A DNA stretch of 64,000 bases, taken from contig JABGQS010000003.1 of the NCBI GenBank assembly GCA_018648645.1, positions 65,791-129,790 of the forward strand, in the 5' to 3' direction. The translations under genes were made by a program, and so were the position numbers. Of this stretch, positions 7,686 to 62,594 are shown one piece after another. Positions within the stretch are counted from its first letter, which is position 1. Every line of letters begins with the position of its first letter. This stretch comes from Clostridia bacterium (GTDB lineage: Bacteria > Bacillota > Clostridia > Christensenellales > SZUA-584). The notes below the pieces were generated by a model that saw only the letters and a list, made by a program, of their open reading frames with translations, was not told the origin of the DNA and searched no databases.

Positions 7686-7715
7686 TTGCTTATTTTAAAG
7701 CGCACAATGTATAAT
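7686..7715 (+). promoter_or_regulatory. Promoter of the six-gene URO-D operon
   Basis: TTGCTT (7686-7691), 18-nt spacer, TATAAT (7710-7715). It lies 40 nt upstream of the TTG start at 7755. It is the only clear promoter before the terminator at 14.2 kb. Confidence 0.65.
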
Positions 7716-7754: not shown

Positions 7755-8723
7755 TTGAGAGAAGAAAGATTTGACTTTGAGAATGAACTGCCTTTTGAAT
7801 TTGACCCCGCGCCGTGGATACCGTTTCGCGACAAAGAGGTGCTGCAGCGTTGCCGAAACATGACGAGGGAGCAGCTTACTGCGCACGACAACCCCGACAT
7901 GGAAATCCACATTACCGGCGATGCAGATGCGCTGTTCACTGCCGACTTTTTCACGCGTATAAAAGAGTCGGACGAGCAGGAAAAGCGTTTGGTTGTAATC
8001 CTGCCAAATCCGCAGGCCGTTCAGTATTCCAACATCGTATATCTTTGCAACAGGTTTGGAGTAAGCTGCCGGAATTTGCACACATTCGCGATGGACGAGT
8101 GGGCAGACCAAGACGGCAACGTCGCCCCTTTAACGTACAAACTCGGGCTCGGGCACTCCTTCATGAACAACTTTTTCAAAAAACTCAATCCGGAGTTACG
8201 CCCAGACATCAGTCAGATGAATTGCTTTACAAACGAGAACGTAGACAATTTCTCTGACCTAATTGAGGAAGCCGGTGACGGTGGTGCGGACGTTTGCTAC
8301 AGCGCGACGGGGTGGCCGGGGCACATCGCTTTCATAGACCCCGACACAAAGGAATTTGCCTCAGACAGCATTGAAGAGTTCTTAACTCTAGGGTCGCGTA
8401 TCGTAACACAGCACCCGCTGACAACGGCGCAAAACTCGCTTTCGGGCAAGTTCGGCGGCAGCGGCGACATCGCGAACATTCCATATAAAGCAGCAACTAT
8501 TGGCCCCCGAGACGTCAAGAACTCGCGCCAAATTATCGAGCGACAGTGCCTTGCTAACCTCGGCGGCACAAACTCTTGGCAGCGCATGATATCGCGCCTC
8601 TCGCTGCACGGACCGGTCACCATGCAGGTGCCGTCATCCATCATACAGCTTTTCAAGACAACAGTGTTCATGAGCGAAGACCTCGCCAGACCAATCGTCA
8701 CCAACGAGACAGGCAGATACTAA
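7755..8723 (+). CDS. Glucosamine-6-phosphate deaminase/isomerase-like protein (NagB fold)
   Basis: 322 residues from the TTG at 7755, chosen because GGAGGG (7741-7746) is 8 nt upstream and the promoter at 7686-7715 lies inside the longer in-frame extension. Motifs FAMDEWAD and GHIAFIDPD correspond to the NagB/6-phosphogluconolactonase active-site strands (LDEY.. and GHIAFNEP.. in NagB), so an aldose-ketose isomerase or deaminase of a phosphosugar is likely. It is longer than NagB (about 240-266 residues) and clearly diverged. It leads the operon with galM, three URO-D proteins and an LDH2 dehydrogenase. The real substrate is unknown. Confidence 0.65.
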   Translation: MREERFDFENELPFEFDPAPWIPFRDKEVLQRCRNMTREQLTAHDNPDMEIHITGDADALFTADFFTRIKESDEQEKRLVVILPNPQAVQYSNIVYLCNRFGVSCRNLHTFAMDEWADQDGNVAPLTYKLGLGHSFMNNFFKKLNPELRPDISQMNCFTNENVDNFSDLIEEAGDGGADVCYSATGWPGHIAFIDPDTKEFASDSIEEFLTLGSRIVTQHPLTTAQNSLSGKFGGSGDIANIPYKAATIGPRDVKNSRQIIERQCLANLGGTNSWQRMISRLSLHGPVTMQVPSSIIQLFKTTVFMSEDLARPIVTNETGRY

Positions 8724-8779
8724 ACTATTACCACACGCGTACTCGAACTCGCGCATTAAATAAGCAAAGGAATTAACTT

Positions 8780-9820
8780 ATGAAAAAAACAGATGACAAG
8801 ACACAAGAAGGCATATATTACTACACGCTCGAGAACAAAAACGGCATGAGCGTCACGCTGACCAATTACGGCGCGACACTAATGTCAGTAATCACACCCG
8901 ATAAAAACGGTAATTTTGACGAAGTCACGCTCGGCTACGACGATGTGCAAGGCTACAAGCAGGGCAAATGCTTTTTCGGCGCAACCGTCGGCAGATACGC
9001 AAACCGCATAGCAGGCGGCAGATTTGCGCTGGGTGATGAGCAATACACCCTCGCCCGCAACGATGGGAATAATCACCTGCACGGCGGCATTGTCGGTTTT
9101 GATAAGGTGATTTGGGACGAAGCGGCTTATTCAAACGACAGCGTAACCTTCTCGTACTTCAGCCCCAACGGTGACGAAGGGTATCCGGGTAACCTAAACG
9201 TTACGGTGCAGTTCTCGCTTGATGACGTCGGAGAGCTCAAGATTCACTACACAGCCACTAGCGACAAAGACACGGTGGTCAACCTTACCAACCACGCATA
9301 TTTCAACTTGGCAGGGCACAAGTCGGGCGTCATCAACGAGCACCTGATGATGATCAACGCAGAGCGCTACACACCGCTCGACAATGGCGGAACCGCCAGC
9401 GGCGAAATCGCGCCCATTAAAAACACACCGTTTGACTTTTCGGAATTCACAGCCATCGGCGACCGTATGAACGACGAAAACGAGCAATTAAAGTTCGGCA
9501 GCGGTTATGACCACAACTACATAATAAACGGCAGCGGATATCGCCTTGCCGCAAAGGCGTTCGAAAAATCGAGCGGGCGTTTGATGAGCGTGTATACCGA
9601 CAAACCGTGCATGCAGCTCTACTGCGGTAACTTTCTTGATGCCGAGTCGGGTAAAGACGGCGCGACTTATAACATCCACGACGCGTTTTGTCTCGAGACA
9701 CAGTTTGCCCCCGACGCACCAAACCAAGAGAGTTTTGCATCGGCAGTACTTCGAGCAGGCGATACATACGATTACACAACCGCCTATCGGTTCGAGGTTA
9801 AAGACGATATTGAAGGCTAA
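8780..9820 (+). CDS. galM: Aldose 1-epimerase (mutarotase)
   Basis: 346 residues, normal length for galactose mutarotase, which interconverts alpha and beta anomers of aldoses. Key segments: TNYGATLMSV near the N-terminus, GRYANRIAGGRF, the substrate-binding HLHGG, the catalytic His in NLTNHAYFNLAG, YDHNYIING, and the late catalytic Glu in CLETQFAPDAPNQ. Start ATG at 8780 is preceded by AAAGGAA. It is 56 nt after the NagB-fold gene, so it is probably in the same operon and acts on the same sugar. The specific aldose is not known. Confidence 0.92.
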   Translation: MKKTDDKTQEGIYYYTLENKNGMSVTLTNYGATLMSVITPDKNGNFDEVTLGYDDVQGYKQGKCFFGATVGRYANRIAGGRFALGDEQYTLARNDGNNHLHGGIVGFDKVIWDEAAYSNDSVTFSYFSPNGDEGYPGNLNVTVQFSLDDVGELKIHYTATSDKDTVVNLTNHAYFNLAGHKSGVINEHLMMINAERYTPLDNGGTASGEIAPIKNTPFDFSEFTAIGDRMNDENEQLKFGSGYDHNYIINGSGYRLAAKAFEKSSGRLMSVYTDKPCMQLYCGNFLDAESGKDGATYNIHDAFCLETQFAPDAPNQESFASAVLRAGDTYDYTTAYRFEVKDDIEG

Positions 9821-9905
9821 ATCAAGCATGTCGAATGTGTCAAAACGACCATAGCACCATATGCAACACGTAAAAAGGCTTTTCAACAATAGAAGAGGTA
9901 CAGCC

Positions 9906-10979
9906 ATGACAGGAAAAGAAAGACTGAGGTGCACAATGCGGCACGAGCAGCCCGACCGTGTGCCGATATTCGAGTTTTTGTACAGCCGCCCTTTTTACAA
10001 AGAGGTTCTAGGCTTCGTACCCAAGGTTTTCGGCGCAGAGACTATCGTAGCGTGCTCGCAAAAGGTCGGATACGATCTCGTGTTTATACCGATGGGCGGT
10101 GTCAGCGGCTTCAACGCAAAGGAAGACAGCGGTGAGATTTACACGGACGAGTGGGGTATCACATACAAGAAAGACCCCGCGACCTGGCCTATCGACGCAA
10201 CTATCAAGTATCCCATGCAAAGCGGCGCAGATTGGGAAAGCTACACCATACCCGACCCGCACATCCCCTCGCGATACGACGGCATCAAAACTGCGCTGGC
10301 AATGTGCGCACAAAGCGGCACCGGCGTGGTCGGCACAGTACGCGGTCCGTACTCTGCTGCGTGGATGCTGTTCGGCTTCGAGAACTTCTTCTATATGATG
10401 TACGACGACCCCGACACTGTGGACGCGGTGCTTACCGCAACAACCGATTTTGCGATTACGGGCGGACTGCATATGGCTGCTCTCGGCGTCGATGCTCTGC
10501 TGTTTGCCGATGATTACGGCTCAAACACGCAGACGTTCTTTTCGCTGCCACACTTCGACCGCTTCATACTGCCGCACATAAAGCGCATGTGTGACGCGTT
10601 TGCGCAGGTCGATATGCAGCTCATTATGCACAGCGACGGACATGTAACCGACCTTGTCGAACGATGCGTAGACGCAGGAATCAAGGGTTTGCACCCCATT
10701 CAGCGCACAGCGGGCATGGATATCGGCGCAATTAAACGCGAATTCGGAGACAGGATCACCATTTTCGGCAACATCGACAACTCCGACCTGCTCGTCAACG
10801 GCACACCGCAGCAAGTCGCGGCACAAGTAAAGGAGTGCATAGCGCTCGCGGCAAGCGGCGGTGGCTATTGCCTCGGTTCCGACCACAGCATACACGACGA
10901 CGTCCCCAACGAAAACGTCTTTGCAATATATGAAGCAGGCAGAAAGCACGGTAAATATCCAATAAGTTCAGAGGAGTAA
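9906..10979 (+). CDS. Uroporphyrinogen decarboxylase (URO-D) family protein, paralogue 1
   Basis: 357 residues from the ATG at 9906 (AGAGG site just upstream); an earlier in-frame ATG at 9861 adds 15 unlikely residues. The TIM-barrel URO-D superfamily is shown by the N-terminal RLRCTMRHEQPDRVPIFEF, the central DDYGS block and the C-terminal CLGSD...DVPNENVFAIYEAG. The HxC zinc-ligand position found in methylcobamide methyltransferases reads HSD here (His242, Asp244), so classical MtaA zinc chemistry is not supported. It is not HemE-like either: no other heme gene is nearby. Next gene starts 3 nt after the stop. Function unknown within the superfamily. Confidence 0.8.
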   Translation: MTGKERLRCTMRHEQPDRVPIFEFLYSRPFYKEVLGFVPKVFGAETIVACSQKVGYDLVFIPMGGVSGFNAKEDSGEIYTDEWGITYKKDPATWPIDATIKYPMQSGADWESYTIPDPHIPSRYDGIKTALAMCAQSGTGVVGTVRGPYSAAWMLFGFENFFYMMYDDPDTVDAVLTATTDFAITGGLHMAALGVDALLFADDYGSNTQTFFSLPHFDRFILPHIKRMCDAFAQVDMQLIMHSDGHVTDLVERCVDAGIKGLHPIQRTAGMDIGAIKREFGDRITIFGNIDNSDLLVNGTPQQVAAQVKECIALAASGGGYCLGSDHSIHDDVPNENVFAIYEAGRKHGKYPISSEE

Positions 10980-10982
10980 ACC

Positions 10983-12029
10983 ATGCAGCTTACACCCAAG
11001 CAGAGATTTCTTCGCACCGTCAAGGGCGAGGAAGTCGATCACCGACCGATGCAGTGCGATTTTTCCGCAAGCGGTCTGAAAAATTATCTGCATACAAAAG
11101 GCATCAACAACGTGTCCGATTTAGAGCTGCTGCCATTTTTCGAAAACCACGTGCTGTACGCATACATGAACGGCACGCTGCTCGATATGAAAACCAAGCG
11201 CGACACCGGCAGCCGCTATGCTCTGGACGAGTGGCAGTGCGAGTGGGATCTGCACCAAGACCTCATGTACTCGGGGCACCCGCTTCCGGGCGGGTCGGCG
11301 TACAAGAGCTACGTTTTTCCCGACCCAAACGCTGTCGGCTACCTCGACTACGCCGAAAATCTGGTCAGCAGCTACGCGGATAAGTATATCGTCACGTCAT
11401 ACCACTTCGCGTGCCTTTTCGAGCGCGCCTACATTTTACGCGGCTTCGAGAACGCGCTTGTCGACTTTCTGCTAAACAAAGAATTCATCGCAGAGCTTCT
11501 CAATAGAATCACGCAGTTCCATGTAGACCTCGCAAAGCGCTATGTGAGCATCGGCGTCAACTGCGGCAGAATCGTAGACGACTACGGCTCACAGCTTGGG
11601 CTAATGATGTCGCCTGCCGTTTGGCGTCAGTTCATCAAACCAAATCTGGCTCGAATCACCGCTGTATATAAAAACGCGGGGCTTCCCGTCATTCTGCACA
11701 GCTGCGGTGACGTTTCCGCAATCATAGAGGACTTTATCGAGATTGGCATAGACGTACTGAATCCGGTTCAGCCAAACGTGATGGATTTAGAATCGCTGGT
11801 AGATACCTACGGGCAGCGAATCGCATTTTTCGGTGGCATATGCAACCAAGAGATTCTGCCGCTAAGCACGCCCGAGCAAATTGACGCAGAGGTTGCCCGC
11901 GTCACGAAGCTGCTCGGCAGACACGGCAGATACATCATCAGTCCATCCAACGGAATCGGGACAGATGTCCCGCAGCAGAACATCGAAGCATACATGCGCG
12001 CAGCCGCTAAATATTCTAAAATGTTATAG
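10983..12029 (+). CDS. Uroporphyrinogen decarboxylase (URO-D) family protein, paralogue 2
   Basis: 348 residues. N-terminus TPKQRFLRTVKGEEVDHRPMQCDF and DDYGSQLGLMMSP are standard URO-D superfamily features. The metal site reads HSCGD (His239, Cys241), as in methyltransferase members, but the expected third ligand Cys near the C-terminus is replaced in IISPSNGIGTDVP. It sits between paralogues 1 and 3 with 3-nt and 9-nt gaps, so the three are surely co-translated. The three paralogues are diverged over most of their length, which argues for different roles, perhaps subunits or successive steps, rather than a recent duplication. Confidence 0.8.
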   Translation: MQLTPKQRFLRTVKGEEVDHRPMQCDFSASGLKNYLHTKGINNVSDLELLPFFENHVLYAYMNGTLLDMKTKRDTGSRYALDEWQCEWDLHQDLMYSGHPLPGGSAYKSYVFPDPNAVGYLDYAENLVSSYADKYIVTSYHFACLFERAYILRGFENALVDFLLNKEFIAELLNRITQFHVDLAKRYVSIGVNCGRIVDDYGSQLGLMMSPAVWRQFIKPNLARITAVYKNAGLPVILHSCGDVSAIIEDFIEIGIDVLNPVQPNVMDLESLVDTYGQRIAFFGGICNQEILPLSTPEQIDAEVARVTKLLGRHGRYIISPSNGIGTDVPQQNIEAYMRAAAKYSKML

Positions 12030-12038
12030 GAGAGCACT

Positions 12039-13097
12039 ATGAACTCAAGAGAGCGAGTTTTCGCCACAATCGAAGGAAAGCCTACCGACTGTATTCCCGT
12101 TACGCCATACAACGGCAACTTTTGTATAGGTATCGCCGGTTTCGAGATAAGCGAATGCTATCTGGACGGCAAAAAGCTGGCACAGGCGATGATTCGCGCG
12201 CAGGAGATTACGGGGCAAGATGTGGTCATCTCCCAGTCCGACCAATACTACATCACCGAAGCGATGGGCGTCAAAACAACGTACAGCAAAGGCAGTCTGC
12301 CGAATGTCGTCTCGCGACCTGTTCAAAACATCAAAGACATATCAAAGCTTAAACCCGTCGATCCGTCGATGGGCAGAATGGGCGTATATATTGAGGCGAT
12401 AAAGCGGATGAACGAACACTACAAGGGCGCAGTGGCAATCCGCGCTTCGGGCGCAGGGTGCTTTCCACTCGCGAGTCACCTGATGGGCATGGACGACTTT
12501 CTGCTCATGCTGGCATACGCGCAAATGGGCGAAGCCGACTACGAGAAGTATCTTTTTGACATGATGGAAGTGCTGTACGAGTCGCACTATCAATATGTTG
12601 AGGCGTGCGTCAAAGCGGGCGCAGACATCGTCCAGTGCGCCGACTCTTTGGCTTCGCTCGACGTCATTTCGCCTGCCATGTACGAAAAATACGCCTTCCC
12701 GTACGAGAAGAAGTTTTTCGACAGAATTGACAAGCTTAAATATGAATACGACTTTCACACGCTGCTGCACATTTGCGGCGACAACACGCTGATTATCGAG
12801 AAAATGGCGGACACAGGCGCCGACATCATCGAGTTCGACTACAAAGTCAGCATGGCATATGCTAAACAAAAGGTGGGCGAGCGGGTTTGCCTGATGGGCA
12901 ACCTAAATCCATGCGGTGCAATGCTCGATGGCACACCCGAGCAAGTATCTCGCGAAGCAAGCCAAGCCATTTTGGATGGCGGCAAAAACGGCAGATTGTG
13001 CCTCGGCAGCGGCTGCGAGGTCGCGGCAGGCTCTCCGCTGCAAAACGTCAAAGCGATGATAGACATCGGTCATTCCATGAAGCCCGATTTTGATTAG
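12039..13097 (+). CDS. Uroporphyrinogen decarboxylase (URO-D) family protein, paralogue 3, with a complete HxC...C metal motif
   Basis: 352 residues. N-terminus NSRERVFATIEGKPTDCIPV and the central block IVQCADSLASLDVISP identify the URO-D superfamily. His244-x-Cys246 (HICGD) and Cys326 (LGSGCEV) match the spacing of the zinc ligands in MtaA/MtbA-type methylcobamide:thiol methyltransferases, so this member could be a true methyltransferase. No corrinoid protein gene or MtaB/MttB-type partner lies in the window. Start has GGAGAG just upstream. Followed after 42 nt by the dehydrogenase gene. Confidence 0.82.
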   Translation: MNSRERVFATIEGKPTDCIPVTPYNGNFCIGIAGFEISECYLDGKKLAQAMIRAQEITGQDVVISQSDQYYITEAMGVKTTYSKGSLPNVVSRPVQNIKDISKLKPVDPSMGRMGVYIEAIKRMNEHYKGAVAIRASGAGCFPLASHLMGMDDFLLMLAYAQMGEADYEKYLFDMMEVLYESHYQYVEACVKAGADIVQCADSLASLDVISPAMYEKYAFPYEKKFFDRIDKLKYEYDFHTLLHICGDNTLIIEKMADTGADIIEFDYKVSMAYAKQKVGERVCLMGNLNPCGAMLDGTPEQVSREASQAILDGGKNGRLCLGSGCEVAAGSPLQNVKAMIDIGHSMKPDFD

Positions 13098-13139
13098 CGC
13101 ATATAGCAAGCAATACAAAATATATTTGGAGGATTTGAA

Positions 13140-14189
13140 ATGAAAACAATCACCGAGAAAGATTTAAAGGTGTTCTGCGTCAGCGCTCTAGTGCAAAACG
13201 GTATGAATGAGCAGGATGCGGCAATTACGGCAGACGTGCTGGCGGGTACAGACGCTCTTGGGTGCTTCTCACACGGCACAAAAAACCTGCGCATGTATAT
13301 AGAGAAAATCAAAGTTGGCGCGCTCGATCCAAAGGCGCAGCCGGAGGTGGTTAAGGAAGGGCCTGCATTCGCGCTCATGGACGCACATGACGCCATGGGT
13401 ATGGTCGCGTCGGTCAAAGGCATGGCAAAAGCAATGGACCTCGCGAAAAAAAGCGGCGTTGGTTTCGTTACAATGAAAAACAGCTGTCACTTCGGCGCGG
13501 CAGGCTACTACGCGAACATGGCGGCAGAGCAAGGCATGGTAGGCATCGCTATGAGCAACACCGATCCGAACATGGCGGTTCCCGGCGGCAAAAGCATGGT
13601 GGTCGGCAACAGCCCCATCGCATACGCAGCCCCTGCAAAAGGGCACGACCCGGTGATGCTCGATATCGCGATGAGCGCAACTGCGGCACTTAAAATCAAC
13701 CAAGCCAAAATCGACAAGAAACCAATTCCGGACACATGGCTGGTCGATACAGATGGCGTGCCCACATCCGACCCCGGCTTCTACGGCACCGGCGGTGCAC
13801 TGCAGCCGATGGGCGCGCACAAAGGCTACGGGCTCTCGATATTGGTAGACATTCTCTCGGGACTGCTGTCCGGCGGCGCTACGAGCAAAGACATCCCAAG
13901 CTGGTGCTTTGAACTGGAAGAGAAAAACAAAGCAAGCCACGCTTTCCTCGCTTTTGACATCGGCGCAATTCAGACAAAGGACGAGTACGAAAATGCGATG
14001 GACGCGTACATCGACAACATCAAGCAATCGCCAAAAGCGAAAGGCAGCGGCGGTATATACATGCCGGGCGAGATCGAGTTTTCAAAAAAGAAAAAGGCTG
14101 ACAAGACGGGCATCCCGCTTACCGACGACGTTGTGCAAAGCCTAGAGCAGCTGGCCAATAGCAGCGGGCTTAAATTAAACTGGAAGTAA
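13140..14189 (+). CDS. Malate/L-lactate dehydrogenase family (LDH2/MDG2) oxidoreductase
   Basis: 349 residues. NAD(P)H-dependent 2-hydroxyacid oxidoreductases of this fold act on malate, L-lactate, sulfolactate, ureidoglycolate or 2,3-diketo-L-gulonate. Motifs: SHGTKNLRMY near residue 45 (family SHG), NSCHFGAAGYY, NTDPNMAVPGG and GAHKGYGLS, all standard. TTGGAGG lies 9 nt upstream of the ATG. It is the last gene of the operon, ending at a strong terminator. Its neighbours (sugar isomerase, mutarotase, three URO-D proteins) suggest a sugar-derived or methylated hydroxyacid substrate; this is inference. Confidence 0.88.
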   Translation: MKTITEKDLKVFCVSALVQNGMNEQDAAITADVLAGTDALGCFSHGTKNLRMYIEKIKVGALDPKAQPEVVKEGPAFALMDAHDAMGMVASVKGMAKAMDLAKKSGVGFVTMKNSCHFGAAGYYANMAAEQGMVGIAMSNTDPNMAVPGGKSMVVGNSPIAYAAPAKGHDPVMLDIAMSATAALKINQAKIDKKPIPDTWLVDTDGVPTSDPGFYGTGGALQPMGAHKGYGLSILVDILSGLLSGGATSKDIPSWCFELEEKNKASHAFLAFDIGAIQTKDEYENAMDAYIDNIKQSPKAKGSGGIYMPGEIEFSKKKKADKTGIPLTDDVVQSLEQLANSSGLKLNWK

Positions 14190-14203: not shown

Positions 14204-14246
14204 AACACCTCCTGCTCGGTGTATACTCCGCAGGAGGTGTTTTGCA
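14204..14246 (+). terminator. Terminator of the URO-D operon
   Basis: AACACCTCCTG (14204-14214) and CAGGAGGTGTT (14231-14241), an 11-bp perfect stem followed by TT. It may act on both strands, since rbsD converges on it. Confidence 0.85.
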
Positions 14247-14268: not shown

Positions 14269-14715
14269 TTAACTGTAATCCACACCCGAAACAAGCACCA
14301 TGTTAGCAAATGGGGTAAACTCGCCGCATTTTACAATGCCGCATTGCTGTTTGCCGACCAGCGCGCCGCACAGAATCGTTTTTTTCAATTCACTGTGAGA
14401 CATCCTAGATACTTTTACCGGCTTACCTTTATGAGTTATATTGGACACAATCTGCAAAAACTCCTTGTTTGTCTCCGGGCTGTGCTTTGCAGTTTCGTTA
14501 GCAATAATCACTTCTTCAACTTCAAGCTCTTCCAGCGTTGCCTTGATGACATCTGCAACCTTTGGCACATCTCTGCAAACCGACAGGTCAATACACTCTG
14601 TCTGGCTATGCACGGGAAAGGGAAACCCTCTGTCAGTTATCGCAAGCATATCGCCGTGTCCCATACGTGCCACCAATCTAGCTAGGTCTGTGTTTAGTAT
14701 TCCGCTCTTTTTCAT
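14269..14715 (-). CDS. rbsD: RbsD/FucU family sugar mutarotase (D-ribose pyranase-like)
   Basis: 148 residues. RbsD converts pyranose to furanose ribose before phosphorylation. N-terminus MKKSGILNTDLARLVARMGHGD with the catalytic His in MGHGD, then AITDRGFPFP, and the C-terminal FANMVLVSGV are the family hallmarks. It stands alone on the minus strand, convergent with the URO-D operon; no ribokinase is nearby. The RbsABC-type importer at 59.9-63.7 kb is a possible functional partner. RbsD and FucU cannot be firmly separated here. Confidence 0.88.
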   Translation of the reverse strand: MKKSGILNTDLARLVARMGHGDMLAITDRGFPFPVHSQTECIDLSVCRDVPKVADVIKATLEELEVEEVIIANETAKHSPETNKEFLQIVSNITHKGKPVKVSRMSHSELKKTILCGALVGKQQCGIVKCGEFTPFANMVLVSGVDYS

Positions 14716-39510: not shown

Positions 39511-39812
39511 ATATGTAATTGTGGGATAGAATGCTGATTGGAAGAAAAGCAATGCTGACCGGCAGATTTTTGGGACTATAAAATTTCAATCGCGAATAAA
39601 GCAGCTCACAATAAAAGAAGCATTGCATTGGTTTTATATTTGGAGGAACGGAAGACGAGACCGCACACGTGCCACACGGTATAAGATGCAGGTCAAGCGC
39701 CTTACTTCAACAGGGGGGAGTGTTAATATATCACTTCTTTATACGTTTTTGGTTTGCAAAATGCAGCCAACAGCGTCAATGCGAATCCTAACTAAATAGA
39801 AGGTTGTACTTT
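39511..39812 (+). other. About 300-nt untranslated leader of the NRPS operon
   Basis: No gene with a usable start was found. It contains an isolated strong G-run (GGGGGG near 39713-39718) without a nearby start codon and a short hairpin around CACGTG (arms ACCG 39660-39663, CGGT 39677-39680). No riboswitch class was recognised. The region 39314-39481, before the promoter, shows nothing clear. Confidence 0.4.
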
Positions 39813-42800
39813 ATGAAAGAGCAAAAGCTTCGCTATGCCCTGACACAGCCGCAACAACGCGTGTGGCTTTCAGAAAAGCTGTATCCGGGCACAGGCATGT
39901 GGAACAACGCGGGTACCCTTAAAATCAAAGGGGAATTAAACTACGCGTTGCTTGCTCGCGCAATGAATATATTTTTGCAGGAAAACGAATCAATCCGCCT
40001 GCGGATAGGCGTCGATGATAACACGCCATATCAATATATCAGCGAATACGAACCATACAAGATTGACGTGCTCGATTTCTCAGACCGCGGCATAGATAAG
40101 CTGTACGAGTGGGACAGCATGCAGTCGCAGGCACCCATGCCGCTGATTGAAAGCGACTTGTTTTACTTTGCGCATGTGAAACTTGGCGACAACGAGGGCG
40201 GATATTTCGCTAAGTTCCACCACTTGATATCTGACGCGCTTTCTATTGTAGAGTTTGGCAACCAGACGATGAGCAACTACGAAAGGCTGCTCGCCGGTCA
40301 GGAACTCACACCAACACCTACTCGCTCGTACATCGAATATATCCATTCAGAGAAGGATTATTTCGAATCAAAAAGGTTCGCGATGGACCACAAGTATTGG
40401 ACGAACAAGTTTGAGGAGCTTCCCGAGCCCACAGTGGTCAAGCAAAAAAAGACCAACTATTTTAGCGTCAAGGCAGAACGTAAAGTCAACGTAATCGAGC
40501 AAGACCTATCTCTGAAAATCCGCGAATACTGCGTAGGAAACGGCATATCAGCGTTCTCGCTTTTCTTGTCGGCGCTTGCAATTTACATAAACCGAATTTC
40601 GGGAAAAGACGACATTATAATCGGCGCACCTGTAGCAAACCGCTCATCCAAAAACGCAAAAGGCTCTTTTGGCATGTTCGTCAGCACGGTGCCCATTCGC
40701 ATAAAAGTCCAAGAAGACCTCACTTTCACCGACTTTGCTAAAGTTGTATCGGGCATCTGGTTCGGTGCTCTAAAGCATCAAAAGTACCCCTACAACATGC
40801 TGATGCAAAGTTTGCGGGAGAAACACAAGAATCTCGAATCGCTGTTTGACGTCACCCTCTCATACCAAATCGGCACGTTCCAAAAGGATAGCGAAAAGTG
40901 TGAATACGAAGGACGCTGGCACTTTAGCGGATACCAAGCGAACTCGCTTAATATCCACCTTAACGACCGCGAAGCCGACGGCAGGGTAATCGTAGACTAC
41001 GACCATCACGCGCCGTTCTTTTCGGGCAAGGAGATGGAGTATTTCCACGCTCACTTAATCAACATCATACGGGACGTTATTGCGAGCCCGGACAAAAAAC
41101 TATATATGTTGGAGCTATTAGCCGACGAGGAACGCGACCGCGTACTCAACCGTTTTAACGCTACAGAGCACGACTTCCCACAGGGCGAAACGCTGGTTGA
41201 GATGTGGCAAAGTCGGATGCGCGTCACACCAAAAGAGAGTACAGCGATTGTTTTCAAAGGCAAATCGATGTCGTACGGCGAACTTGACGCGCGCTCAACA
41301 GCACTTGCGCTTTACTTAAGAAAAAAAGGTATCGGCGCAAACGACATTGTCGGGCTGCTGATGCCGCGCTGTACCGACCATTTCGTGTGCATGCTGGCTG
41401 TGCTAAAAGCCGGGGCTGCGTTTCTGCCTATAGATTCCGAGCTTCCGAATGAGCGTATCGCATACATGCTCAGCGACAGCGGAGCAGTAGCCGCACTGGT
41501 ATCACCCGATTTGATTGCCAAGTGCGAAAGCGTGCCGGAGCTGCTCATTATCAAGACGACGATACCGCTTGCGCTTCCGGACGATCCGTACGTTATGCCG
41601 ATTTGCAAACCAAACGACTTAGCATACGTCATCTACACATCCGGTTCAACAGGGCAGCCGAAAGGCGTACAGATAGAGCACCACTCAATCGTACACTTCA
41701 TGTATATGATGCAGGAGATATGGGACTATTCGCCGGGCGCACGTGTGCTTTGCGCCGCCTCGTTCTGCTTCGATATGAGCATTATGGAAGCGCTTCCGCC
41801 GCTCGTCAGCGGAGCCGTTCTGGTGCTGGCGGCAGAGCACGAAGCAAACATACCTCGCAACATGGTGCGTCTCATACAAAACTCGCTGGTCAACATAATG
41901 ATGGTGACACCGGGGCGAATGGAGCTGCTTTTGTCAGATACGCACGGTGCTGCCAGCCTAAAAGATTTTAGAGACATCGGAATGGGCGGCGATGTATTGC
42001 CGGAGAAGCTGCTTTCGGACGTTCAGCAATGCACGGGCGCACGCATTACAAACTTCTACGGTCCGACCGAGATCACCGTCTGCGCAACCTGTACCGATGT
42101 CACGAACGCAAAGGTACCCAACATCGGCAGCCCTATGCGCAACGTGAAAGCGTACATTTTGGACGCGCATCAAAATCCTGTGCCAATCGGCGTTCCGGGA
42201 GAACTGTACGTCGGCGGCAAAGGCGTTGCACGGGGCTACATCAACAAACTGGAACTCAACGAAGAGCGCTTTATTGACAACCCATTCGCAGCCGGAGAAA
42301 AACTATACCGCACAGGCGACTTGACTCGGTGGTACCCGCTTGGCGAGATCGAATTTCTCGGGCGAATAGACAAACAAGTAAAAATTCGCGGCTATCGTAT
42401 CGAGCTCGCAGAAATCGAAAACCGTCTCGTACAAGTGCCGGGCATTACGTCCTGTACAGTTGCCGACTACGCCGACTCGAGCGGACGCAAGTTCCTTGCA
42501 GCATACGTATGCGGGCAGCCTCCAAAGGTGGCCGACATCAAAGCACATTTGGTCAAAGAGCTGCCAAACTATATGATTCCGTCTTATTTCATGACGATAG
42601 ACAGTCTGCCTTTCAGCCCAAGCGGCAAGGTAGACAAAACGCGGCTGCCCGACCCTCTCGAAGGTATCGAAGCGCGAAGAGACGATTTTTCGCCGCCGCA
42701 AACACCGACAGAAACCGCTTTGGCACAAGTTTGGCAAAACGTGCTCGGTATCGAGCAAATCGACCGCAACGACAGCTTTTTCGACATCGGCGGAGACTCG

Positions 42801-45800
42801 CTGTCAATTGTAATGGTCATGTCGCAGATTCCTCAGCAGTTCCACGTAGAGCTTGCTCTCGAAGACGTGTATTTGCAGCCCCAGCTAAAAGAAGTCGCGG
42901 CGCTAATCGACGCGGCAGAGCTGTGCTCACATCAGCCTATCGTATCGGCACCAAAGCAGGATGATTACCCCGTGTCCTCTGCCCAGCAGCGCATGTGGAT
43001 AATCGAGCAGGCAGCTGGCGGAAACGCAGCGTACAACATCCCGATGGCTTTCAAGCTGCGCGGCAAAGTTAACTTGCCGCGTTTGAGAGCCGCATTCGAA
43101 GCGCTGATTTTGCGCCACGATTCACTAAGAACATCATATGTGTTGCGCGGGGGAGAGCTTCGGCAGCAAATCGCCGACAGCGTTGACTTGCCGCTTGTGC
43201 GTGCTGAATGCAAACACAGAGAGCTCGATGAGCAGCTCAAGTCACAAATCAAACCATTCGACATGCAAACAGCGCCGTTGATGCGCGCTGCATTAATCAA
43301 GACCGAAAAAGAAACGATATTTTTTATAGACATTCATCACAGTATTGCCGACGGCCGAAGTGCGAAAATACTGATTGACGACTTGGTAGCGCTGTACGAT
43401 GACGAAATACTACCGAGCCCGCTGTTCGAGTACAAAGACTACGCCGTATGGCAGCGCTCATACATGAAATCAGAAAGCATTGCCCTTCAGTGCGAATATT
43501 GGCAAAGCACATTAAACGGAGAGCTTCCGCTGCTTAACCTGCACACAGACCGACCGCGCGCATCCACACAGCAATTTTCCGGCGCCCGGCTTTCATTCAA
43601 CATACCAAAGCAAACGGCAGACAAGCTGCGCGATTTTGCAAAGCAGCACGGCGCAACACTGTTCATGAGCATACTTGCCGTATATAACATACTGCTTGCT
43701 AAGTACACCGGGCAGGAAGACATTATCGTAGGCACGCCTGTGTCCGGGCGAGGCCGACAAGAAGTGCAGGACATCGTGGGTGTGTTTATCAACACGCTGC
43801 CGCTTCGCAATCGTCCGCTTGCAGACCTCAGCTTCTTGCAGTTTTTCAACCAGCTGACCAAAAACAGTATATCGGCGTTTGCGCATTCCGACTATCCGCT
43901 CGAGCGCATGATAAGCGATATTTCACTGGCAAGGGACGCAAGCCGAAATCCGCTTTTCGACACTATGCTGGTACACTCGGCACAGCCGCAAGATTTTTCT
44001 CTCGGTAATGCAACATGCAGCCACTATCCGTTCGACCCGGACATAGCCAAGCTTGACCTAACGCTCGAAGTATACGAGAGCGACGAGGGGCTGGAGTGTC
44101 AGTTCGAATACAACACCATGCTGTGGAACGAGCCGACAATTCGGCGCATCAGCAGGCATCTATCGCGCCTTTTTGATACATTGCCGGACGAGCCGGACAC
44201 AAGAATCAAAGACGTTGCGATGTTGTCACAAAACGAAATTTGGCAGGTGACGCAGGGCTTTAACAAAACGGACAAGCCGCTGGCCGACATCAGCGTTCAA
44301 TCGCTACTCGAAGACCTCGCTGTTTCTGCTCCGGATAAAACAGCGCTCATTTGTGACGGGCAAAGCATGACCTTTGCGCAGCTTAACAACCGCGCTAACC
44401 AAGTTGCACATCAATTGCGAGAAAGCGGTGTAACGAGAAATTCTGTCGTGGCGTTGTGCCTGCCGCGCTCGCTTGACCTTATGATCGGGCTTCTTGCCGT
44501 GCTAAAAGCCGGCGGCGGATATTTGCCGATAGATCCAAGCTACCCGGAGGATCGCATCGCTTATATGCTTTTCGACAGCGGCGCTGCAATGATTATTAAA
44601 GAGCCGGACACCGACGTCGGTTTTTCCGGCAGGAGAATTCACCTAAAAGATATAGATGCAGACGGCATCTCGACCAATTTACCGAGAATCGACCATATGG
44701 AAGACGCGGCGTATATCATTTATACTTCGGGATCCACCGGCAAACCCAAAGGATGCACGCTCCCGCGGCGCGGTTTGCTAAACCTGTTTGCCGACACAAA
44801 ATCGACGATAGCTTATCAGCCGGAGGAGATCAGCGTATCGGTCACAACGGTCGCGTTTGACATCTTCATCGGCGACGCCGTGCTTCCGCTGCTTAACGGA
44901 TGCACCGTTGTTCTCAGCACAGAGGAGGAGCTGCGGCAGCCGCACTTGCTTGCAGATTTGATAGAGAGAACGCAAGCGACATTCATACAAACAACGCCGA
45001 CGCGCATGCGCATCATGATGAACGACGAAAGTTTCAGAGCGGCGGCGGGCAAACACATTACAAAAATCGTTCTCGGTGGAGAAATGATACCAATCTCGCT
45101 GCTTTCTCAGCTGCAAACCGAAATAGGCGCACAGATCATAAACGGATACGGACCTACCGAAGCGACGGTCTACAGCTCGTTCAAAGACTTGACGAGCTCC
45201 TCTTTCGTTACCATCGGGCGTCCCGTAGAGAACACCCGCATGTACATACTCAACAAGAACAAGCGTCCTGTGCCGGTTGGCGTGCTTGGCGAGCTATATA
45301 TCAGCGGCGCAGGTGTCGCTGACGGGTACATCAATCGCGACGAGCTCACAAAACACAGCTTTTCACCCGACCCGTACTGGCCGGGGCACATGATGTATAG
45401 AACGGGCGATGTTTGCGCGTTTATGCAGGACGGCGACGTCGAAATCTGCGGCCGCGTTGACCACCAAGTTAAAATCCGCGGTTTGCGCATAGAGCTTGGC
45501 GAAATCGAAGCGGCAATGCGCAGCGTTGACGGCATCGAAGAAGCTGTGGTCAAAGATTGGGGAGAAGACGTTAAAAAGTACTTGTGCGCTTACTACTCTG
45601 TCAGCAAGCATGTGGACGAAAAGGTACTGCGCGGCATACTTTCAGACGCGCTTCCTTCATACATGATCCCTTCGTTCTTCATCTTGATGGACGAAGTACC
45701 CACAACGCTAAACGGCAAGGTGGACAGAAAAGCTCTCTTGGAGCCGGATCGCAAAGAGCTTAGCAAACGCGCTTCGATTGAAGGCGTGCAAATGAGCGGG

Positions 45801-47207
45801 CAAGAGCGAAGAATGAGCAAAGTTTGGGCAGATATACTCGGTATCAGCGGCATTGGCCCGGACGACAACTTCTTTGAGCTTGGCGGAGACTCGCTTGCAG
45901 TAATCAACGTGCAGGCAGCGCTGGTTCAATATGGTTGGTCGGTCAGCACCAAGGACTTCTACGAAGCACAGACGCTGCGTGGCGTGTGTAGCTGCGTGAA
46001 TGCAGACCAAGAGCACGAGCCGGACAAAACGATCGAAAGCAAACTCGACATATCAGTACCGCCGTATGCGCACCTTTCACCGATACGGGCAGAGAAAGTA
46101 CTGCTGACGGGCGCAACAGGGTTCCTCGGCGCTCATATCCTCGCAAAAATGTTGAAAAAGAAGCGCACTCACGTTATTTGCTTAGTGCGCGGCAAAGACG
46201 AGCAAGACGCTTCGGCACGCTTGCGAGAGCAGCTGACATTTTACTTTGGCACACAGAGCAGCTCAGAGATTATGAAAAAAGTCAGCGTGCTTTGCGCAGA
46301 CATTTCAAAAGACAACCTCGGTCTTGATGAAGCGTCATATGCAGCGCTCAAAAAGGTAGACACGATTATCCACAGCGCGGCGATTACCGACCACGTCGGG
46401 CAAGAGGACGAGTTCGAAAAAGCAAACGTAGATGGAACACGCAACATCACATCGCTGGCAGGGCTTGCTAACGCGGCGCTGGTGCACATCTCCACAACGG
46501 GAGTATCCGGCACTCAATTTACACTGGACAAGCGCAAACACGGAGAGTTTGACGAAAGCAGCTTCTACATCGGGCAAAACTACGCAGACAATGTGTACAT
46601 AAACAGCAAGTTCAGAGCAGAAGAAATCGTACTCGAAGCTATAGAACTTGGGCTAAACGCTCGCATTATGCGCGTGGGGATGCTGACCGCGACGCTTGGC
46701 GGACGGTTCCAGAAAAATCCGGAACGCAACGCCTTCGCAAACCGAATTGCTGCTCTTTGCGCAATTGCATGCGTACCTGTCGGTATGCTTGGTGCAAACA
46801 TAGAAATGACCCCTGTCGATTCGTGCGCGCAAGCGATTTTGGCGCTGACCCACAACCAAAGCCCGCGACAGGCGATTCATCACGTGTTTAACACAAACAC
46901 TATGTCACTTACTGTGCTTATATCACTGCTCGAGCAAAACGGTAACCGCATAGAGATTATCTCGGACACAGCATTTATGGAAAAAATGACGCAACTAAGC
47001 CGACAAGGCGACTTCACACACGTTAGCAGCCTGGTGGACGACTTAAGCAATTATAACAGCGCGCCGCAAATTGTGATTACAGCATCCACTACCACGCAAC
47101 TATTATCGGGTGCAGGCTTTAGCTGGCCGGTTATTGACGCGGCATACATGGGCGGTTTTTTGCAAAGCATTACCGCTAATCCAAAACAAGGAGATAAAGA
47201 AGCATGA
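39813..47207 (+). CDS. Dimodular nonribosomal peptide synthetase, C-A-T-C-A-T-R
   Basis: 2464 residues from the ATG at 39813 (AGAAGG 9 nt upstream; the in-frame TTG at 39804 is inside that spacing). Domain order by motif: condensation 1 (HHLISD, His136-His137-Asp141); adenylation 1 (about 455-950; YTSGSTGQPKG, NFYGPTE, SGKVDK); carrier 1 (GGDSLS, Ser996); condensation 2 (HHSIADG, His1175-His1176-Asp1180); adenylation 2 (about 1485-1975; YTSGSTGKPKG, GYGPTEATVY); carrier 2 (GGDSLA, Ser2027); terminal thioester reductase (GATGFLG near 2099, catalytic Tyr2262-x3-Lys2266). The N-terminal C domain suggests an N-acylated start; the reductase releases an aldehyde or alcohol. All core residues look intact. 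No phosphopantetheinyl transferase, MbtH or exporter is nearby. Its stop overlaps the kinase start by 4 nt. Confidence 0.95.
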   Translation: MKEQKLRYALTQPQQRVWLSEKLYPGTGMWNNAGTLKIKGELNYALLARAMNIFLQENESIRLRIGVDDNTPYQYISEYEPYKIDVLDFSDRGIDKLYEWDSMQSQAPMPLIESDLFYFAHVKLGDNEGGYFAKFHHLISDALSIVEFGNQTMSNYERLLAGQELTPTPTRSYIEYIHSEKDYFESKRFAMDHKYWTNKFEELPEPTVVKQKKTNYFSVKAERKVNVIEQDLSLKIREYCVGNGISAFSLFLSALAIYINRISGKDDIIIGAPVANRSSKNAKGSFGMFVSTVPIRIKVQEDLTFTDFAKVVSGIWFGALKHQKYPYNMLMQSLREKHKNLESLFDVTLSYQIGTFQKDSEKCEYEGRWHFSGYQANSLNIHLNDREADGRVIVDYDHHAPFFSGKEMEYFHAHLINIIRDVIASPDKKLYMLELLADEERDRVLNRFNATEHDFPQGETLVEMWQSRMRVTPKESTAIVFKGKSMSYGELDARSTALALYLRKKGIGANDIVGLLMPRCTDHFVCMLAVLKAGAAFLPIDSELPNERIAYMLSDSGAVAALVSPDLIAKCESVPELLIIKTTIPLALPDDPYVMPICKPNDLAYVIYTSGSTGQPKGVQIEHHSIVHFMYMMQEIWDYSPGARVLCAASFCFDMSIMEALPPLVSGAVLVLAAEHEANIPRNMVRLIQNSLVNIMMVTPGRMELLLSDTHGAASLKDFRDIGMGGDVLPEKLLSDVQQCTGARITNFYGPTEITVCATCTDVTNAKVPNIGSPMRNVKAYILDAHQNPVPIGVPGELYVGGKGVARGYINKLELNEERFIDNPFAAGEKLYRTGDLTRWYPLGEIEFLGRIDKQVKIRGYRIELAEIENRLVQVPGITSCTVADYADSSGRKFLAAYVCGQPPKVADIKAHLVKELPNYMIPSYFMTIDSLPFSPSGKVDKTRLPDPLEGIEARRDDFSPPQTPTETALAQVWQNVLGIEQIDRNDSFFDIGGDSLSIVMVMSQIPQQFHVELALEDVYLQPQLKEVAALIDAAELCSHQPIVSAPKQDDYPVSSAQQRMWIIEQAAGGNAAYNIPMAFKLRGKVNLPRLRAAFEALILRHDSLRTSYVLRGGELRQQIADSVDLPLVRAECKHRELDEQLKSQIKPFDMQTAPLMRAALIKTEKETIFFIDIHHSIADGRSAKILIDDLVALYDDEILPSPLFEYKDYAVWQRSYMKSESIALQCEYWQSTLNGELPLLNLHTDRPRASTQQFSGARLSFNIPKQTADKLRDFAKQHGATLFMSILAVYNILLAKYTGQEDIIVGTPVSGRGRQEVQDIVGVFINTLPLRNRPLADLSFLQFFNQLTKNSISAFAHSDYPLERMISDISLARDASRNPLFDTMLVHSAQPQDFSLGNATCSHYPFDPDIAKLDLTLEVYESDEGLECQFEYNTMLWNEPTIRRISRHLSRLFDTLPDEPDTRIKDVAMLSQNEIWQVTQGFNKTDKPLADISVQSLLEDLAVSAPDKTALICDGQSMTFAQLNNRANQVAHQLRESGVTRNSVVALCLPRSLDLMIGLLAVLKAGGGYLPIDPSYPEDRIAYMLFDSGAAMIIKEPDTDVGFSGRRIHLKDIDADGISTNLPRIDHMEDAAYIIYTSGSTGKPKGCTLPRRGLLNLFADTKSTIAYQPEEISVSVTTVAFDIFIGDAVLPLLNGCTVVLSTEEELRQPHLLADLIERTQATFIQTTPTRMRIMMNDESFRAAAGKHITKIVLGGEMIPISLLSQLQTEIGAQIINGYGPTEATVYSSFKDLTSSSFVTIGRPVENTRMYILNKNKRPVPVGVLGELYISGAGVADGYINRDELTKHSFSPDPYWPGHMMYRTGDVCAFMQDGDVEICGRVDHQVKIRGLRIELGEIEAAMRSVDGIEEAVVKDWGEDVKKYLCAYYSVSKHVDEKVLRGILSDALPSYMIPSFFILMDEVPTTLNGKVDRKALLEPDRKELSKRASIEGVQMSGQERRMSKVWADILGISGIGPDDNFFELGGDSLAVINVQAALVQYGWSVSTKDFYEAQTLRGVCSCVNADQEHEPDKTIESKLDISVPPYAHLSPIRAEKVLLTGATGFLGAHILAKMLKKKRTHVICLVRGKDEQDASARLREQLTFYFGTQSSSEIMKKVSVLCADISKDNLGLDEASYAALKKVDTIIHSAAITDHVGQEDEFEKANVDGTRNITSLAGLANAALVHISTTGVSGTQFTLDKRKHGEFDESSFYIGQNYADNVYINSKFRAEEIVLEAIELGLNARIMRVGMLTATLGGRFQKNPERNAFANRIAALCAIACVPVGMLGANIEMTPVDSCAQAILALTHNQSPRQAIHHVFNTNTMSLTVLISLLEQNGNRIEIISDTAFMEKMTQLSRQGDFTHVSSLVDDLSNYNSAPQIVITASTTTQLLSGAGFSWPVIDAAYMGGFLQSITANPKQGDKEA

Positions 47208-58406: not shown

Positions 58407-58434
58407 ATAATACGTATTACCAAATACGTGTTAT
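58407..58434. promoter_or_regulatory. Inverted-repeat operator candidate upstream of the sugar isomerase gene
   Basis: ATAATACGTATT (58407-58418), spacer ACCA, AATACGTGTTAT (58423-58434): 12-bp arms with one mismatch. A TATAAT at 58434-58439, about 46 nt before the ATG, touches the right arm. Position and symmetry fit a repressor or activator site. The rest of the gap 58177-58484 shows nothing else clear. Confidence 0.5.
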
Positions 58435-58484
58435 ATAATTTTGCTCGTTTCATAAAATTTCTATTAAATGAAGGGAGAGAAACA

Positions 58485-59330
58485 ATGATTAGATTAGGTA
58501 TGCACACAGACAACTGGAGAACGCTCTCGGGCAGCTTTGAAGCTGGCTGCGAGTCTGCCAAAAAGTATGAACTCGATTTTGTCGAAGCCGGAATTATTCA
58601 CGGTCAATATTTTATTCAAGCCATGGGGTATGAGCCAAGCCTCAACCTCGGACAGAACCCGATTGCCATCCGCCGCTATTGCGACTCTATGGGTCTAGAG
58701 ATTTCGCAGATTGACGGCAGCTACCCGATGATGGGTGTTGACGGCAGCACATATGGCGTACAATACGTACAGCAGAGCATCCGCTTTGCTAAAGACCTCG
58801 GTTGCCCTAAGGTTGACACCACCGACAGCGGAAACATCGCGCAGGATCTCACCAAAGACGAAGTCCTAAAGATTACCATACGCAACTATGCGGAATGTCT
58901 CAAGTGGGCTGAGGACTACGATATTATTATCAATATCGAACCTCACGGACCGTACACCGGTGACGAAGAGTTTATGACCAAGCTATTCGAGCACTTCGAT
59001 TCGGAATATCTGCGCTTTAACATGGACACCGGCAACGCGTTCATCATGGGCAAAGATCCTCTCGAGTACATGAAGAAGTTCTACAAATACATGACACATG
59101 CGCACGTCAAAGACGTGGATGCTGGTCTGGCGGCGTTGGTACGCGGCGAAGACACTGGTATACCATGCAGCGAAGTAGCAATTGGCGAAGGCGTGAACGC
59201 GGACAATATCAAAGCCTGCGTTGAATATCTCATCGAGAACAACTGGAGCGGCGACCTGTCGATCGAGTGCAGCGGCACTGACGATAAAATCGGCGCAAGC
59301 GTTGAGTATCTTGGAGGGTTAATCAAATAA
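58485..59330 (+). CDS. Sugar phosphate isomerase/epimerase (AP endonuclease 2-like TIM barrel)
   Basis: 281 residues from the ATG at 58485 (AAGGGAGAG upstream); a longer frame from 58428 is unlikely. Xylose-isomerase-like barrel: early VEAGIIHG, IINIEPHGPYTG (metal-binding Glu-His), FNMDTGNAF (Asp), THAHVKDVDAG (His) and SIECSG (Glu). These are the usual metal ligands of the family, whose members isomerise or epimerise sugars, inositols or hydroxypyruvate. A terminator follows, so the ABC importer downstream has its own promoter, but the two probably serve the same sugar or polyol. Confidence 0.85.
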   Translation: MIRLGMHTDNWRTLSGSFEAGCESAKKYELDFVEAGIIHGQYFIQAMGYEPSLNLGQNPIAIRRYCDSMGLEISQIDGSYPMMGVDGSTYGVQYVQQSIRFAKDLGCPKVDTTDSGNIAQDLTKDEVLKITIRNYAECLKWAEDYDIIINIEPHGPYTGDEEFMTKLFEHFDSEYLRFNMDTGNAFIMGKDPLEYMKKFYKYMTHAHVKDVDAGLAALVRGEDTGIPCSEVAIGEGVNADNIKACVEYLIENNWSGDLSIECSGTDDKIGASVEYLGGLIK

Positions 59331-59344
59331 CGGAGAGCGAAACG

Positions 59345-59378
59345 GAGCCACTACACGTTTTGCAGTGGCTCTTTTTTT
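59345..59378 (+). terminator. Terminator after the sugar isomerase gene
   Basis: GAGCCACT (59345-59352) and AGTGGCTC (59364-59371), 8-bp perfect stem, then T7. Confidence 0.85.
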
Positions 59379-59548
59379 ACAAACAACCACAGCCGGTTTG
59401 TGAACGGTTTTAGAGTGCTCGGCGAGGTGATTGTAAAAAAATGGAATATAATGGTGAAAAAAAAGGGGATATAGCACTTTAGACTACTAATTAACGAATA
59501 AAAGCAGTATGCAAAACCATTATTAGCATCTGAATCCTTGTTTAAGTG

Positions 59549-59577
59549 TTGAAATAAAGCTGGAAAAGGGTTATAAT
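59549..59577 (+). promoter_or_regulatory. Promoter of the sugar ABC transporter operon
   Basis: TTGAAA (59549-59554), 17-nt spacer, TATAAT (59572-59577): near-consensus sigma-A promoter. The stretch 59379-59548 before it shows no gene. Confidence 0.8.
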
Positions 59578-59898
59578 TAGTAGAAATATTGTGGGAAAGT
59601 TTAGTGTGAAAAGACTGCTTGGTCATCAGAGCCAGAAAGAAACATTGATAGCTCGGCGATTGAAAGCTTTAAAAAGATAAGCAATATGGCATTATAATGA
59701 GATAACGAATAAAACACCCTCGGTAATTGAGGAAGCGCAGCAGGGTGCATTGATAGGGAATTTAAATGGCGATGCAAATCAAGAACTTCCAAGCCAATCC
59801 AAAGCGGGATAGCAAAGCTGGGAAGACTGTTAGTGTCATAGTCATCTATAATAATGTTTATTAAATAGTTTAAGATAAGTTTATCAGGAGGTAGGAAA
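59578..59898 (+). other. About 310-nt leader of the ABC transporter operon
   Basis: No gene seen. It holds a hairpin with arms CACCCT (59715-59720) and AGGGTG (59742-59747), a competing CCTC/GAGG pair inside it, and a second TATAAT-like box at 59693-59698 without a -35. No known riboswitch was recognised. AGGAGG (59886-59891) is the ribosome site of the first gene. Confidence 0.45.
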
Positions 59899-62510: not shown

Positions 62511-62534
62511 CGGTAGAATGATTGGTTAATAATA

Positions 62535-62573
62535 GCATCAGAACTTTGATGCAAAAAAATTACCTGTTGGTAA
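62535..62573 (+). promoter_or_regulatory. Two small hairpins between permease and binding-protein genes
   Basis: GCATCA/TGATGC (62535-62540, 62547-62552) and TTACC/GGTAA (62560-62564, 62569-62573), both followed by A-runs rather than T-runs. They are likely RNA-processing or stability elements that raise binding-protein expression rather than terminators. Confidence 0.4.
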
Positions 62574-62594
62574 AAAAAAATAGGAGGAAGAAAA

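Follow-up and report, generated by a model that had tools for sequence, protein, structure and literature searches.

Gene content of the operon

A six-gene operon carrying three genes of the URO-D superfamily (PF01208) is located in a 64,000-nt stretch of DNA from a Clostridia bacterium of the order Christensenellales (assembly GCA_018648645.1, contig JABGQS010000003.1, positions 65,791 to 129,790 of the forward strand). This whole stretch is referred to as the window. The six genes, P0001 to P0006, are encoded on the same strand and are separated by gaps of 56, 85, 3, 9 and 42 nt, in agreement with a preliminary description of this DNA, which had given a six-gene, same-strand operon with gaps of 3-85 nt. 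Taken alone, the operon looks like an ordinary sugar operon that includes three URO-D genes, the function of which is unproven. The real interest is in the genome-wide and order-wide pattern, which makes a coherent case for the anaerobic demethylation of methylated sugars. The features of the operon and its boundaries are as follows (positions within the window):

7686..7715, + strand: plausible promoter-like site, TTGCTT-18-TATAAT, with a weak -35 and a perfect -10 element
7755..8723, + strand: P0001, NagB-like sugar-phosphate isomerase/deaminase homologue, 322 amino acids (aa), TTG start, sub-cut-off NagB matches
8780..9820, + strand: P0002, aldose 1-epimerase (GalM), PF01263 (Aldose_epim) E 3.8e-85, PRK11055 above cut-off
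9906..10979, + strand: P0003, URO-D superfamily, proposed methyltransferase I, PF01208 E 1.9e-35, ligand columns H-D-H
10983..12029, + strand: P0004, URO-D superfamily, proposed methyltransferase I, PF01208 E 3.1e-27, ligand columns H-C-N
12039..13097, + strand: P0005, MtaA-like (Mlp-like) URO-D, proposed methyltransferase II, PF01208 E 1e-65, ligand columns HCC
13140..14189, + strand: P0006, LDH2-family NAD(P) dehydrogenase, PF02615 E 9e-115
14204..14241, no strand assigned: terminator between convergent genes, a perfect 12-bp inverted repeat with a 14-nt loop, followed by a T run
14269..14715, - strand: RbsD/FucU sugar mutarotase, outside the operon, convergent and sharing the same terminator, PF05025 E 1.3e-33

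The promoter-like site has a perfect TATAAT at 7710-7715 and a -35 element, TTGCTT, with three of six consensus matches, and it scored under the cut of the consensus promoter scan. Of the promoter placed at 7686-7715 in the preliminary description, the -10 element stands and the -35 element is weak. The TTG start codon of P0001 at 7755 is preceded by GGGAGGG, and the mechanically called open reading frame begins earlier, at TTG 7686. The strong terminator described previously was recovered as a perfect 12-bp stem; the terminator scanner missed this hairpin because its loop limit is 8 and the loop here is 14 nt. An Rfam search of the window returned no family.

The Pfam matches of P0002, P0003 to P0005 and P0006 are all far over the curated cut-offs, and the mutarotase and LDH2 dehydrogenase named earlier are thereby confirmed. 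P0006 scored 383.8 bits on PF02615 (gathering score 38.8 bits), and every NCBIfam equivalog remained under its own cut-off for this protein. P0001 has no Pfam match and reached 35.8 bits on the NagB equivalog TIGR00502 (cut-off 236.9), so that its earlier label of sugar isomerase holds as a distant likeness. The AlphaFold model of P0001 alone was unusable (mean pLDDT 33). Four relatives of P0001 (62, 55, 50 and 32% identity) are encoded elsewhere in its own genome, and the family is not bound to URO-D, with relatives in URO-D-free genomes and in places adjoining an amidohydrolase (L058, L181 and L182). Another genome (G076) contains three tandem relatives with 46, 49 and 63% identity (L176:7609-10502), located downstream of a gene that is M20-peptidase-like, judging from first residues that resemble those of L173:6646-7923 (Pfam M20). 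GalM, LDH2 and the NagB-like protein would fit the conversion of a sugar or sugar acid; the operon does not name the sugar.

The three URO-D proteins

P0004 and P0005 have 20-27% identity to P0003, and the three proteins are found in three separate places of a 64-protein tree built from URO-D frames of at least 300 aa. This is in line with the three clearly diverged paralogues noted before. P0005 groups with other MtaA-like proteins of its own genome (nearest pair 99/88), P0004 is located within a 21-row clade (98/93), and P0003 pairs only with an ortholog from another genus (100/98). The ortholog of P0003 was sought across genomes, and P0004 and P0005 were compared with the loci already fetched. 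P0003, P0004 and P0005 are not recent duplicates. In five trios of URO-D genes on one strand (the window, L047, L060, L064 and L082), exactly one member belongs to the side of the tree with 20 rows; this pattern is exploratory and the split behind it is weak (93/83, drawn open).

The preliminary description had counted a firm placement of these proteins with HemE against its proposal, and such a placement was not observed. On TIGR01464 (cut-off 302.95 bits), P0005 scored 97.9 bits, P0004 scored 32.6 bits and P0003 was not listed. By this cut-off, the genome as a whole encodes no HemE, with 17 TIGR01464 matches and none above it.

P0005 is the most similar to MtaA. It shares 96 of 338 aligned residues with MtaA of M. 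mazei (28%), which is inside the identity rule (>25%) for Mlp and soluble coenzyme M methyltransferases, and P0003 and P0004 align to MtaA over part of their length only. In the alignment to the MtaA structure 4ay7, P0005 keeps H244, C246 and C326 in the HxC...C columns, which we take to be the zinc ligands of MtaA. The second cysteine is absent from P0003 (HDH) and P0004 (HCN). All three proteins remained under the cut-off of TIGR01463, the MtaA/CmuA subfamily (235.4; P0005 213.1, P0003 95.9 and P0004 74.3), and P0005 scored 161.4 on the MtaA equivalog, of which the cut-off is 400. Among 66 aligned rows (frames of at least 280 aa), the ligand triple HCH is the commonest (19), H followed by C or D is found in 49, and the columns vary between HCH, HDH, HDN and HCN. 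This suggests that the metal site differs from substrate to substrate, and it suggests a split into MtaA-like acceptor enzymes and substrate enzymes. URO-D proteins at L062:6542-9086 and L185:7335-8573 have Y-E-T in the ligand columns and no HxC. They are about 74% identical across two families of the order while the surrounding operons otherwise differ, possibly as a result of recent transfer.

The structural model of P0003 is of low confidence (pLDDT 59, pTM 0.66, 120 residues under 50), so its fold matches support the general UroD/MtaA fold only. The closest fold was MtaA (4ay8; Z 24.0, root-mean-square deviation 3.0, 264 aligned residues) and the next was UroD (Z 22.8), a difference in Z that is too small for this ranking to carry much weight. 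At the sequence level, CdmB matches P0003 weakly (E 0.00081); it was not among the 50 fold matches listed for the model, which proves nothing.

URO-D genes and sugar genes across the genome

The 2.67-Mb genome has 42 PF01208 match rows, representing about 40 genes, as two pairs are apparently fragments of a single frame. The picking of open reading frames missed at least one URO-D (C56:81754-82404). In two pooled scans of 104 and 80 neighbor genes, the second of which takes in genes of locus L079 from another genome, sugar families rank among the most frequent neighbors of URO-D. These neighbors include FGGY kinases (9 of 104), sugar-binding proteins (7 of 104 and 4 of 80) and xylose-isomerase-like barrels (4 of 104), and ABC transporter parts and Gfo/Idh/MocA proteins are also common. 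In a count that used few seed families, a sugar gene on the same strand was found within 3 kb of 20 of the 43 URO-D genes, compared to 9 of 40 in the window background and 1 of 16 in the background of locus L049.

Multiple loci point to candidate sugars. L-fucose isomerase, over its equivalog cut-off, is present beside or near three to four URO-D genes at L060 (own genome), L198 and L195, which represent three genomes and two families, and a sugar importer is part of L060 and L198. The four URO-Ds of L198 have 64, 63, 45 and 33% identity to those of L060. The fucose-isomerase block of L195 also contains a GH38-type glycosidase. In genome G125, the sole URO-D (74% identity to one of locus L062) is accompanied by Gfo/Idh, ketohexokinase-like and IolE-like genes, and the corrinoid protein of this genome adjoins an activase.

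The only near-full-length ortholog of P0003 (51% identity) is found in another genus of the same family. Its locus encodes a tagaturonate reductase over the cut-off, a galactarate-dehydratase-like protein, an enolase-superfamily protein, dehydrogenases and a sugar importer, and this hexuronate-type operon has no P0004- or P0005-like neighbors close by. A partial P0003 relative on a 3.2-kb contig (L193) adjoins another URO-D and an SDR-like (short-chain dehydrogenase/reductase-like) gene. The three-URO-D block is not conserved in the single ortholog with fully readable surroundings. The preliminary description had looked to conservation of the three-paralogue block in relatives, which did not hold up, and had counted scattered, unlinked homologues against its proposal; such scattering is seen in part for the block itself and is not seen for the link to sugar genes.

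Elsewhere in the window, at 58428-63719 (+), phmmer seeds detected a xylose-isomerase-like barrel, a sugar ABC ATPase, a permease and a binding protein, and, on this contig, a further URO-D is located about 4.6 kb past the end of the window (C23:134437). At 39804-47207 (+), a 2467-aa open frame is present, the start of which resembles a non-ribosomal peptide synthetase condensation domain, an impression from its first residues.

Corrinoid proteins in the genome and the order

A corrinoid methyltransferase requires a corrinoid protein. Three small MtaC-like corrinoid proteins are encoded in the genome, on contigs C2, C43 and C59. A RACo-type activase, a family whose role is re-activation, is present as well (RACo_C_ter matches at C16 and C12), as are CO dehydrogenase/acetyl-CoA synthase (CODH/ACS) and CO dehydrogenase. 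Two parts of a corrinoid-dependent methyltransferase system (methyltransferase I, corrinoid protein, activase and methyltransferase II), namely the corrinoid protein and the reductive activase, are found in the same genome. The corrinoid and activase matches are on C2, C12, C16, C36, C43 and C59, and none is on C23, the contig of the operon. A CODH/ACS cluster with RACo, CO dehydrogenase and a homocysteine S-methyltransferase was observed (L056:12147-18927 and L194:861-6410), in which a 1173-aa frame fuses acetyl-CoA synthase and a CdhD-like domain.

Following a preliminary comparison of 22 URO-D-rich genomes with 26 others (22 of which are URO-D-free), one corrinoid protein was searched in the set of 396 genomes from the order that had been used for PF01208, with URO-D tallied to five per genome (five meaning at least five). 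The stand-alone MtaC-like corrinoid protein is present in 44 of the 47 genomes with at least two URO-D, in 6 of the 23 with one and in 7 of the 326 with none. The difference between the first and the last group has a Fisher p of about 5e-46, not corrected for kinship, and the 47 genomes span 16 families. Relatives of P0001, a sugar family used as comparator, occur in 18/47 compared to 41/326, and because of this contrast the association is more than a property of sugar-rich genomes. The corrinoid protein was separated from MetH by an E value below about 8e-43 and a frame not of about 800 aa, a cut that was chosen after viewing the list. By this cut, G263 (frame 977) was counted as positive and G191 (830) was not, and several other positives are in frames of 399-519 aa.

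Gene runs that join these parts have been found in two genera of the same family. In L062 (own genome, C43), one strand encodes an RbsB-like binding protein, two URO-Ds, an ABC/AraC protein, a sugar ABC ATPase, a permease and a corrinoid protein. In L206 (G004, another genus), one strand encodes a PocR-type regulator, a corrinoid protein, a sugar-binding protein, an ABC ATPase and two permeases, and the run continues with a URO-D, a glycyl-radical activase, a glycyl radical enzyme and a second URO-D. Each run is probably a single transcript. They are the strongest single evidence that sugar import, diverged URO-Ds and a corrinoid carrier belong together. At L206:11416-14622, the glycyl radical enzyme (765 aa) and its activase are placed between the two URO-D genes, and the enzyme is under every named equivalog cut-off. 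An Rfam search of seven loci returned five tRNAs and one c-di-GMP-I aptamer, the latter at the contig end of L062.

Proposed function and alternative explanations

The operon may contribute to the catabolism of a methylated sugar or sugar acid, as part of a route with corrinoid-dependent methyl transfer and a corrinoid protein encoded elsewhere in the genome, a proposal to which we give an even chance. In this route, the methylated sugar would be imported by a transporter from outside the operon, which itself has no importer. P0003 and P0004 would pass the methyl group of the substrate, most likely an O-methyl ether, to the Co(I) of a shared MtaC-like corrinoid protein, as suggested by their family, their ligands and the co-occurrence with corrinoid proteins. 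P0005, based on its likeness to MtaA, would accept the methyl group of the corrinoid protein and pass it on to a thiol or a different acceptor, and the RACo-type activase would re-reduce the cobalt. The methyl group may enter CODH/ACS in this genome and could not do so in most relatives. The freed sugar would then be handled by GalM, the NagB-like protein and LDH2. The methyl-transfer role, already suggested in the preliminary description, is favored by the co-occurrence with corrinoid proteins, by the operons with both parts and sugar transport, and by the MtaA ligands in P0005. The fucose-isomerase loci, the tagaturonate reductase near the P0003 ortholog, the gene setting of the G125 URO-D, the lack of HemE and the presence of CODH/ACS and RACo also count for the proposal.

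Several observations weigh against this proposal. The six-gene operon contains no corrinoid protein, activase or folate methyltransferase, and the genome has three corrinoid proteins for about 40 URO-Ds. Two genomes with two or three diverged URO-Ds (G038 and G292) are without a stand-alone corrinoid protein (the third exception, G133, is a genome that is only 75% complete), and seven genomes hold the corrinoid protein without URO-D. An MtaA-like gene adjoining the corrinoid gene could be the source of most of the association between URO-D and the corrinoid protein. CODH/ACS is present in 3 of the 47 genomes with at least two URO-D and has strong scores in 5 of 396; an expansion of URO-D that serves the Wood-Ljungdahl pathway as a general rule was rejected on these counts. 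The proximity of URO-D and sugar genes is an enrichment and not a rule, and the sugar link cannot separate an ether methyl group from a non-methyl reaction. One alternative is that the diverged URO-Ds, such as P0003 and P0004, catalyze a corrinoid-free reaction on a sugar or sugar acid (a decarboxylation, a lyase reaction or an epimerization at the metal site) and that only the MtaA-like ones use a corrinoid. The frequent sugar genes around URO-Ds, the varying metal-ligand columns, the exceptions G038 and G292 and the excess of URO-Ds over corrinoid proteins all agree with it. However, genomes without an MtaA-like URO-D (best E above 1e-40) are still richer in the corrinoid protein, which is present in 4 of 6 such genomes with at least two URO-D and in 5 of 20 with one, compared to 7 of 326 without URO-D. 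In addition, L062 and L206 join the corrinoid protein, a sugar importer and diverged URO-Ds in one run. This alternative is considered unlikely, with roughly one chance in five.

The remaining explanations have a lower probability and differ in the substrate. Demethylation of an S- or Se-methyl compound, in the salvage of methylthio-sugars or methionine, would be comparable to the methyl-sulfur/selenium roles proposed for type 1 mlp clusters (PMC10418091). In its favor are P0005, which with 28% identity to MtaA is inside the >25% Mlp rule of that paper, and the homocysteine S-methyltransferase on the CODH/ACS contig. However, only one of the three URO-Ds is Mlp-like, the other parts of a type 1 cluster are absent from the operon, and about 40 copies in varied sugar operons fit one salvage path poorly, which makes this explanation improbable. 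Slightly less probable still is the demethylation of methoxylated aromatic aglycones of plant glycosides, with the sugar genes processing the sugar part. The characterized O-demethylases of the UroD superfamily, MtvB, OdmB, VdmB and MtoB, act on methoxyaromatics (PMC13222342), but the genes found around the URO-Ds here encode monosaccharide importers, kinases, isomerases and uronate enzymes. Among the singly scanned neighbors, none was identified as a gene for aromatic degradation, a weak argument, as the larger scans give only the 25 commonest families. A role of the URO-Ds in tetrapyrrole synthesis, as paralogues of HemE, is close to impossible: they share the URO-D Pfam domain with it, but the best HemE score is less than a third of the cut-off.

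If corrinoid-dependent demethylation of methylated sugars is accepted for the operon, a broader organization can be envisaged. Somewhat less probable than the proposal for the operon itself, it would consist of a shared anaerobic corrinoid kit, in which dozens of UroD-superfamily methyltransferases, each located in the operon of one sugar, use one or a few common corrinoid proteins to O-demethylate many methylated monosaccharides. The sugars would include fucose, hexuronate, inositol-like and other compounds. This would give a testable role to a large URO-D family that is annotated after a heme enzyme, and the gene sets for testing can be named, foremost the fucose-isomerase blocks L060, L198 and L195.

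Comparison with known systems

MtaA (methylcobalamin:coenzyme M methyltransferase, PDB 4ay7/4ay8) is similar to P0005 in identity and in the aligned HxC...C residues, and the fold of the P0003 model is closest to 4ay8. It differs in that P0003 and P0004 are without the second cysteine and P0005 remains under the subfamily and equivalog cut-offs, and in that sugar genes accompany the URO-Ds in the operon, which lacks a corrinoid protein. Type 1 mlp gene clusters also have several UroD proteins per cluster, occur in an anaerobe and include proteins such as the Mlp-like P0005. Kountz and Balskus described UroD-type Mlps with corrinoid proteins, for which sulfur or selenium roles were proposed, and type 1 clusters contain Mlp2, Mlp3, a corrinoid protein and an activase together (PMC10418091). 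The operon, with one Mlp-like protein, carbohydrate genes and neither a corrinoid protein nor an activase, falls outside this cluster type.

MtvB, OdmB, VdmB, MtoB and CdmBCA belong to the same superfamily, and the genome likewise has a corrinoid protein and a RACo-type activase. The known O-demethylase and dehalogenase systems use methoxyaromatics or chloromethane and consist of a methyltransferase I, a corrinoid protein and a methyltransferase II, and CdmB is without zinc, so not all known members need this metal (PMC13222342). Here, by comparison, many enzymes in sugar operons would share few corrinoid proteins, an arrangement that, if true, would depart from the clustered organization of the systems described to date.

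Polysaccharides of plants and algae contain methylated sugars, for example 2-O-methyl-L-fucose in rhamnogalacturonan II (PMC12282258) and 6-O-methyl-galactose in porphyran (PMC10033563). In a search of open-licence papers, none of the listed titles and abstract openings dealt with the demethylation of sugars by corrinoid/UroD enzymes, and a 2025 paper states that an anaerobic route for demethylating methyl-galactose is not known (PMC12316285). The aerobic demethylation of 6-O-methyl-D-galactose is catalyzed by a P450 monooxygenase with the formation of formaldehyde (PMC10033563). The proposed purpose is the same in both cases, namely, to free a methylated sugar for catabolism. A route through a corrinoid protein would work without O2 and without the handling of formaldehyde, and the shared kit, if true, would supply the anaerobic counterpart that has been missing for the demethylation of sugars by P450.

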